Source: Spirochaetota bacterium (GTDB lineage Bacteria; Spirochaetota; UBA4802; UBA5550). From it: DNA of 64,000 nt. Position numbers and translations under genes: made by a program. Within the stretch, counting starts at the first letter, position 1, and each line of letters starts with the position of its first letter. The stretch lies in contig JALOTL010000010.1 in the NCBI GenBank assembly GCA_025457915.1, forward strand, positions 1-64,000. Reading direction: 5' to 3'. The notes below the pieces were generated by a model, which ran no database searches, was not told the origin of the DNA, and was given only the letters and a program-made list of their open reading frames with translations. This document shows, piece by piece, positions 29,290-62,066 of the stretch.

Positions 29290-29297
29290 ACGGGAAT

Positions 29298-29331
29298 AAA
29301 AAAAGCCGCCCTTTCAGGGCGGCTTTTTTTA
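29298..29331. terminator. Bidirectional terminator
   Basis: A perfect 7-bp GC stem (GCCGCCC, TTTCA loop, GGGCGGC) flanked by A-runs and T-runs, so it works on both strands: for the chemoreceptor on the left and the small secreted protein on the right. Confidence 0.85.
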
Positions 29332-29338
29332 TTGTTTA

Positions 29339-59591: not shown

Positions 59592-62015
59592 TCAGGAAGC
59601 GCTGATCAGTTTTTTGGCCCTGTTTACCCCTTCGACCGCGTCCCTGCCGTAGTAAGCGCCTATGCCCCTCGCGTATTCTTCATTGACCACGGCACCGCCG
59701 ATAAGAAGTCTCGACCCGATATTTTCCCGGTCCAGGGCGTCCCTGACGGCTTTCATCTCGTTCATTGTCGTGGTCAGGAGTGAGCTCAGGCAGATGATGT
59801 CCGGCTTGATCCGCTTCGCGCTGTCTATGATTTGCTCCACTGAGACGTCCTTGCCCAGGTCATGGACTTCGAAACCGTGGTTTTCAAGCATCATCGACAC
59901 GATGTTCTTCCCTATATCGTGGATGTCTCCCTTGACGGTGCAGATCAGAACCCTGCCCAGCGATGATGATGATTTCTGGGAGAGTATCGGCTTGACGACC
60001 TCGAAGCCTTTTTTCATCGCCCCGGCCGACGCTATCATCTGCGGAAGGAAGTATTCCCCCGAGCTGTAAAGTTCTCCGACCCTCTCCAGGCCCCTGATCA
60101 GCGCCCGTTCCATGATGTCCTCGGCCTTTTCTGTCGCCAGGGCCTTTTGTACCAGACCGCCTATTTCATCCGGGTTGCCCTCGACGACCATGCCGTATAT
60201 GGAATCCAGTATGCCGCCGGATTTTTCCTGTGCGGAGGTGGCGGCCTTTTCCGGCTCGGTCTTCTGCCCGAGCCGGGCTATGTATTTCTGCGCGGCAGGA
60301 TCCCTGCCGGTAAGAAAATCGAGTGCAAGCTTTTCCTCCTCCGAGTACCCGTCTATCACCCTCATGGTCGAGGGATTGATGATGACGGCTGTGACGCCGC
60401 TTTCAACCGCAAGCCTGAAATACGCGTTATTAATATATTTTCTCTGCGGCAGCCCGAAGGATATGTTGCTGAGCCCCAGCGATGTCTTGATGCCCTTTTT
60501 CGAAAAGTGTTCGATCACCTTCAGCGTTTCCGCGGCGCTGCCCGGCTCGGCGGCCTCGGCCAGCATGAGGGGATCGATGAATATCCTTGACGGATCGATG
60601 CCCTCTTTTTCCAGCCTGGAAAGGAGTTTTTCCCCGGCATCGATCCTTTTCGAGGCCTCCCTGTGCACGCCCGTGTCGTCAAGGCACAGGGCTATTGCGA
60701 AACAGCCGTACCGCCTGATGACCGGCACGAGCCCGGCAATGCTTTTTTCCTTTCCGTTTATGGAATTGAGTATCGGTATCCCCGGATATGAGATGAGGGC
60801 CCTTTCAATGACACCGCTGTTGTCTGAATCTATCATGAGCGGCACGCTGACCAGGTTTGATAAAAGGGTAACAGACCTTCTCATCGTCGCGGCCTCGTCA
60901 GTACCGGGGACGCCCACGTTTATATCGAGTATGTGCGCCCCTTCCTTTTCCTGCTTTTTTGATTCCTCCCTCAGGAAATTCTGTGAGCCCGTCCTGAGGT
61001 CCTCGGCGAATTTTTTGCGCGCCGTCGGGTTCAGCCTCTCCCCTATTATCACCGTGTCCCTGTGGGATTGAAGATCGAGGGTCCTGAACCTGCTGGTGAT
61101 GAATGAATGGTTCGTCCTGAATTCCCGCGGGGCGTATTTTTCGGAGTCAACAGCCTTTCTGAGCGCCCTGATGTGGTCCGGCGTGGTGCCGCAGCATCCG
61201 CCGATGATTTTCACCCCGAGCCTGGCGAATTCAAGCGACGTCGCCGCGAATATTTCCGGCTTCAGCCTGTATACCGCCTTTCCGTCCTCCATTTCCGGCA
61301 GGCCCGCGTTGGACCAGACGCTCAACGGAATGCCGGTTCTCTCTAGAAGGGAGAAATTTTCCCTGAATATCCCGAGAAGCCCTTCCGGGCCCATGCTGCA
61401 GTTTGCTCCCGCTGCCGCGGCGCCGCAGCCGGCAAGGGTGGCCACGGCTGTGAATATGTCAGTACCGGTCAGGGTCTTTCCGTTTTCTGAGAAGGTCATG
61501 CTGCAGATAGCTGGCAGGCCCGCGTCCCTGGCCGCAAGGAGGGCGAGTTTGGCCTCCTGGATGTCGCTCATGGTTTCGATTATCGCGGCGTCCGCGCCGC
61601 CTTCGGCCAGTCCCATGGCCTGGACGAGATAAGACTCATAGACTTCCTCGCAGGATGTCTCTCCCATTGGTTCTACGAGCCTGCCGCATGGTCCGATGGA
61701 GCCGCCCACGAGTCCGCCTGTTGATTTCGCGGCCCTTCTTGCAACAGCCGCCGCCTTTTCGTTGATTTCCCCGCACCTGTCGGCGAGTCCGTATTCCTCA
61801 AGCTTGATCCTGCTGGCCCCGAACGTATTTGTTTCTACCATGTCGGACCCGGATTCAAAGTACAGCCTGTGTATTTCTTCAATTATATCGGGTTTTTCTA
61901 TATTAAGGAGTTCGAATGATCCCCTGTAGCCCGGAAGCCTGGCAAGCAGAAGTGTTCCCATTGCGCCGTCGATAAGGATCGGACCGGGTTTTTTCAGTTT
62001 CTCAATAAAATTCAT
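59592..62015 (-). CDS. metH: Cobalamin-dependent methionine synthase, lacking reactivation domain
   Basis: An 807-residue B12-dependent methionine synthase: homocysteine + methyl-THF to methionine + THF. Order: homocysteine domain (1-290, zinc cysteines in GANCSMGP and GGCCGTTP), pterin domain (about 330-575, LDINVGVPG), then the cobalamin cap and Rossmann domain (about 625-805, with DIHDIGKNI and LSSLL). The C-terminal SAM-binding reactivation domain of E. coli MetH is absent, as in other short forms, so a separate activase is needed. ATG chosen for GGAGGAAG just before it; an upstream in-frame TTG lies inside the promoter. Confidence 0.93.
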   Translation of the reverse strand: MNFIEKLKKPGPILIDGAMGTLLLARLPGYRGSFELLNIEKPDIIEEIHRLYFESGSDMVETNTFGASRIKLEEYGLADRCGEINEKAAAVARRAAKSTGGLVGGSIGPCGRLVEPMGETSCEEVYESYLVQAMGLAEGGADAAIIETMSDIQEAKLALLAARDAGLPAICSMTFSENGKTLTGTDIFTAVATLAGCGAAAAGANCSMGPEGLLGIFRENFSLLERTGIPLSVWSNAGLPEMEDGKAVYRLKPEIFAATSLEFARLGVKIIGGCCGTTPDHIRALRKAVDSEKYAPREFRTNHSFITSRFRTLDLQSHRDTVIIGERLNPTARKKFAEDLRTGSQNFLREESKKQEKEGAHILDINVGVPGTDEAATMRRSVTLLSNLVSVPLMIDSDNSGVIERALISYPGIPILNSINGKEKSIAGLVPVIRRYGCFAIALCLDDTGVHREASKRIDAGEKLLSRLEKEGIDPSRIFIDPLMLAEAAEPGSAAETLKVIEHFSKKGIKTSLGLSNISFGLPQRKYINNAYFRLAVESGVTAVIINPSTMRVIDGYSEEEKLALDFLTGRDPAAQKYIARLGQKTEPEKAATSAQEKSGGILDSIYGMVVEGNPDEIGGLVQKALATEKAEDIMERALIRGLERVGELYSSGEYFLPQMIASAGAMKKGFEVVKPILSQKSSSSLGRVLICTVKGDIHDIGKNIVSMMLENHGFEVHDLGKDVSVEQIIDSAKRIKPDIICLSSLLTTTMNEMKAVRDALDRENIGSRLLIGGAVVNEEYARGIGAYYGRDAVEGVNRAKKLISAS

Positions 62016-62032
62016 GGCTTCCTCCAATTTAT

Positions 62033-62060
62033 ATATCAATATATCTTGATATATTGATAT
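62033..62060. promoter_or_regulatory. 28-bp perfect palindrome over the metH promoter
   Basis: Two 13-bp arms (ATATCAATATATC / GATATATTGATAT) with a 2-base centre, no mismatch. It fills the whole spacer and most of the -10 box of the metH promoter, so a bound protein would shut the promoter. The shape fits an ArsR-family repressor such as the S-adenosylhomocysteine sensor SahR; that identity is inference. Confidence 0.65.
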
Positions 62061-62066
62061 AGTCAA
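62038..62066 (-). promoter_or_regulatory. metH promoter
   Basis: Minus strand: TTGACT (62066-62061), exactly 17 bases, TATATT (62043-62038). The predicted leader is short, with the ribosome-binding site following almost at once. Confidence 0.6.

Follow-up and report, generated by a model that had tools for sequence, protein, structure and literature searches.

A perfect 30-bp palindrome at the metH promoter of a Spirochaetota bacterium very probably serves as operator for a SahR-type repressor whose gene is on another contig (C12) of the same genome. On this reading, which is drawn from sequence comparison, the build-up of S-adenosylhomocysteine (SAH) would free both metH and ahcY, the genes for cobalamin-dependent methionine synthase and SAH hydrolase. 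The palindrome lies in the window, the 64,000-nt stretch of DNA that was analysed.

The metH promoter and its palindrome

The palindrome occupies positions 62032-62061 and consists of two 14-bp arms around a 2-bp centre (14+2+14), reading TATATCAATATATC-TT-GATATATTGATATA on the plus strand. The promoter runs on the minus strand, in the order TTGACT (-35 box, 62066-62061), 17 nt, TATATT (-10 box, 62043-62038), about 12 bases, GGAGG (Shine-Dalgarno sequence, 62025-62021) and the metH ATG (62015-62013), the gene spanning 59592-62015; TTGAC is also present 5' of most orthologous operators. The initial annotation had proposed this TTGACT-17-TATATT promoter directly upstream of a cobalamin methionine synthase, and it is indeed seen there. 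The palindrome described with it exists but is larger than the 28 bp (13+2+13) then given, and it covers, besides the spacer as claimed, the entire -10 box instead of four of its bases; the span quoted at that stage, 62033-62066, takes in the palindrome and the -35 box. Perfect palindromes with arms of at least 14 bp and loops of 0-8 are expected about 0.002 times in the window and 5e-5 times in the AT-rich intergenic region, and none arose when that region was simulated 3000 times with a Markov model; the metH palindrome is beyond chance expectation. Only one longer perfect palindrome is present in the window, at 29295-29333, a GC-rich 18+3+18 inverted repeat between A- and T-runs that has the look of a bidirectional terminator.

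Within the 30 bp, ATAT recurs at 8-bp steps in four rungs, and two ATC-N10-GAT sites are placed 8 bp apart, namely the 20-bp core ATATCAATATATCTTGATAT (62033-62052) and a weaker site in a register moved by 8 bp, ATATCTTGATATATTGATAT (62041-62060). The axis of the core, the exact 20-mer held in common with the sahR-like gene discussed below, is 4 bp off the axis of the perfect palindrome. Across 34 spirochaete promoters, ATAT was found at offsets -8 (21 promoters), 0 (32), 8 (32), 16 (31) and 24 (14), of which 0-16 are partly set by the search itself and -8 and 24 are free of it; counts at offsets adjoining these two are near zero except at +/-2, where longer AT runs contribute. A second full ATC-N10-GAT occurs at exactly +8 in 10 of 67 promoters, a sample that takes in related genomes and hence gives no probability, and at none of the other offsets from 1 to 18; several phyla have SahR promoters with such a second site at exactly 8 bp. 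Within this ATAT ladder, the metH palindrome represents the symmetric variant with four rungs. It might hold two SahR dimers abreast, or one dimer shifting register, and so respond at a threshold unlike that of sahR-ahcY, although we consider this rather doubtful. No description of the 8-bp pitch in spirochaete operators, or of the four-rung metH form, was found in the literature. In part of one related family (f5: G042, G027 and G036; loci L039, L035 and L038), the middle of the sahR operator is 8 bp shorter, and that of G042, TATTACTATATC-TT-GATATAGTAATA, shares its type of axis with the window's metH palindrome.

The product of metH (807 aa) is of the MetH type, with S-methyl_trans, Pterin_bind and two B12-binding domains. 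No Met_synt_B12 activation domain was detected in it by domain search, and PF02965, the B12 reactivation domain, has no match in this genome. RACo-type reactivation of MetH has been proposed for Desulfovibrio (PMC5764234), and the single RACo gene found here (C19:171808-172527) is, by analogy, a candidate reactivator of this MetH. No SahR-type site was found at that gene.

The sahR-ahcY locus and the extent of the regulon

In pattern scans of the 3.66-Mb genome, ATATCAATATATCTTGATAT has exactly one other exact copy, at C12:74879-74898, which stops 8 bases ahead of the ATG of an ArsR-family gene (74907-75824). The encoded protein (305 aa) combines an N-terminal ArsR helix-turn-helix (HTH) domain, the best HTH_5 match of the genome (E 1.9e-12), with a C-terminal S-adenosylmethionine (SAM) methyltransferase domain; the four other HTH_5 matches have no copy of the site. 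The gene directly following is ahcY, and the two are probably co-transcribed. The SAM/SAH-binding motif DLGCGTG is present in the C12 protein and mostly invariant in 20 homologues; the structure model has a confident methyltransferase fold (mean pLDDT 91.8), and its closest folds include SAH-bound methyltransferases. In the protein tree, the C12 protein lies among spirochaetes, in a group with homologues from Desulfovibrionaceae and Desulfobacteraceae (100/96). Judged by its HTH_5 match and by its grouping with these homologues, it is classed as a likely SahR ortholog. The initial annotation had named a SahR-like repressor as the natural candidate and had expected an ArsR-family gene carrying the same site; the exact core copy upstream of the ArsR-methyltransferase gene, with ahcY adjoining, bears out both.

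Other copies of the palindrome had been expected at further methionine genes. This holds for ahcY, through the sahR-ahcY unit, but not for metK or the two metF-type genes, which were located in the genome and have no operator. The regulon therefore appears to be minimal here, consisting of sahR-ahcY and metH as far as site searches indicate, and smaller than predicted. At up to 3 mismatches, a handful of AT-rich matches to the core were obtained genome-wide; three that were examined (L010, L011 and L019, 2-3 mismatches) lie near no methionine gene, resemble chance matches and were rejected as targets. The two findings on which the proposal had been staked, a copy near methionine genes and an ArsR-family regulator in the genome, were both looked for and are both present.

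Conservation among spirochaete relatives

The order sahR then ahcY is kept in 28 of 30 spirochaete relatives. In these 30 genomes, the sequence that best fits the operator TACTATATCAnnATATnnTGATATAGTA begins 23-59 bases before the sahR start and agrees with 17-24 of the 24 consensus positions, so that by sequence match a recognisable operator is located just 5' of sahR in most of them, the match being weak in a few (G031, G036). TTGAC precedes the operator by 20-30 bases in most relatives, commonly by 23, and the left arm therefore overlaps the position of the -10 box. The operator pattern has matches in 22 of 27 genomes, compared with one for the reversed control.

At metH, the site is present in orthologs from G005, G010 and G011, with an identical 28-mer in G005, a different genus whose MetH is 61% identical. 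Eight close metH orthologs within the order have no site (G020, G022, G023, G027, G031, G036, G039 and G042), and control of metH by the predicted operator is thus patchy across the order. In a sister genus (g3), additional sites are found before genes for the corrinoid activator RACo (G002, G012, G015, G017 and G019), an apparent extension of the regulon; in G002 and G015, a homocysteine methyltransferase/MTHFR-like gene is likewise preceded by one. G012, which shares its family with the window genome, was identified through sequence identity of L024 and L115 as the MAG Spirochaetes bacterium RBG_16_49_21, and this assigns the window to Spirochaetota. The five RACo genes concerned (DUF4445; L105-L109) have a gene for a CooC-like ATPase or for formate-tetrahydrofolate ligase nearby. 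That they serve a MetH devoid of the reactivation domain was considered and set aside, because the MetH of G015 has this domain. No report of a spirochaete SahR was found in the literature available to us.

Relation to known regulators and proposed control

SahR has been described as binding a 20-bp palindrome whose ATC-10 nt-GAT is held in common with SamR, and its core targets, defined as those found in the majority of SahR genomes, are sahR, ahcY, metH, metF and metK (PMC4239095). Autoregulation has been reported in Ensifer, and SAH is cited as the effector in Desulfovibrio (PMC8877191). The system described here resembles SahR of Desulfovibrio and other Proteobacteria in its 20-bp ATC-N10-GAT operator, a likeness judged by described length and spacing, in the site preceding sahR itself (C12:74879-74898), as for autoregulation, and in having ahcY and metH as predicted targets. 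It differs in belonging to Spirochaetota, whereas the published survey covered Proteobacteria, in the lengthening of the operator as an 8-bp ATAT ladder, and in the lack of sites at metF and metK. The last point does not by itself exclude membership, since the core is defined by majority and a single genome need not have all of it. Wider comparison points the same way as the likeness: ATC-N10-GAT is found in 64 of 81 upstream regions (3 expected in shuffles); it is present 5' of many Desulfovibrionaceae and Desulfobacteraceae homologues and of named homologues from Desulfobacterota, Geobacteraceae, Acidobacteriota and Planctomycetota, many with ahcY adjoining, and the sahR-ahcY order recurs in many Desulfovibrio and Geobacter loci.

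The regulator could instead resemble SamR, a distant SahR homologue of Xanthomonadales with a 24-bp palindrome (PMC4239095), and use SAM as a corepressor in place of SAH as an inducer. Written as CTATATC...GATATAG, the spirochaete operator is likewise 24 bp long and has the ATC-10 nt-GAT in common, and the SamR effector was left open in that study; however, metK is the sole SAM-cycle gene of SamR regulons (PMC4239095), whereas here ahcY adjoins the regulator and metK has no site, and we regard this reading as unlikely. Fusions of ArsR with a methyltransferase that methylate arsenite have been described (PMC10190100), and the C12 protein has a weak, sub-threshold match to arsenite methyltransferase, but it is most improbable that it is an arsenic sensor/methylase of this ArsRM type with an incidental metH site: it has only three cysteines, which all fall within the methyltransferase domain and leave the HTH domain with none, ahcY is the conserved neighbour, and sites occur solely at methyl-cycle or corrinoid genes. 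Hardly any weight is given, either, to the palindrome being an RNA or DNA structure (terminator, riboswitch or AT-rich extrusion) and not an operator. A perfect, AT-rich inverted repeat with a short loop would suit such a structure, yet it spans the -10 box and is hence mostly untranscribed, and an exact copy of the 20-mer is present at sahR, with conservation extending to diverged genomes. Moreover, no Rfam match was obtained around the metH palindrome or at the sahR-ahcY, metK, metF and RACo loci. MetJ, MetR and SAM/SAH riboswitches control the same pathway; MetJ sites differ in being tandem repeats (PMC4239095).

Under SahR-type control, dimers would bind the palindrome through their winged-helix domains and mask the metH promoter from its spacer through the -10 box to the start region; judging by where the site lies in the promoter, RNA polymerase would be blocked. 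Accumulated SAH would then bind the C-terminal methyltransferase-fold domain and cause SahR to let go of DNA, a step proposed because of the family, the conserved SAM/SAH-binding motif and the confident model. Expression of ahcY and metH would rise together, and SAH would be converted to homocysteine and on to methionine. Altogether, SahR, a known SAH sensor, probably works in Spirochaetota too, which extends this type of methyl-cycle control to a phylum that the published survey of Proteobacteria did not include. The genome offers a testable minimal regulon of two operons, the RACo gene joins the predicted SahR targets in one sister genus, and the 8-bp ladder provides a concrete hypothesis for the packing of winged-helix dimers on DNA.
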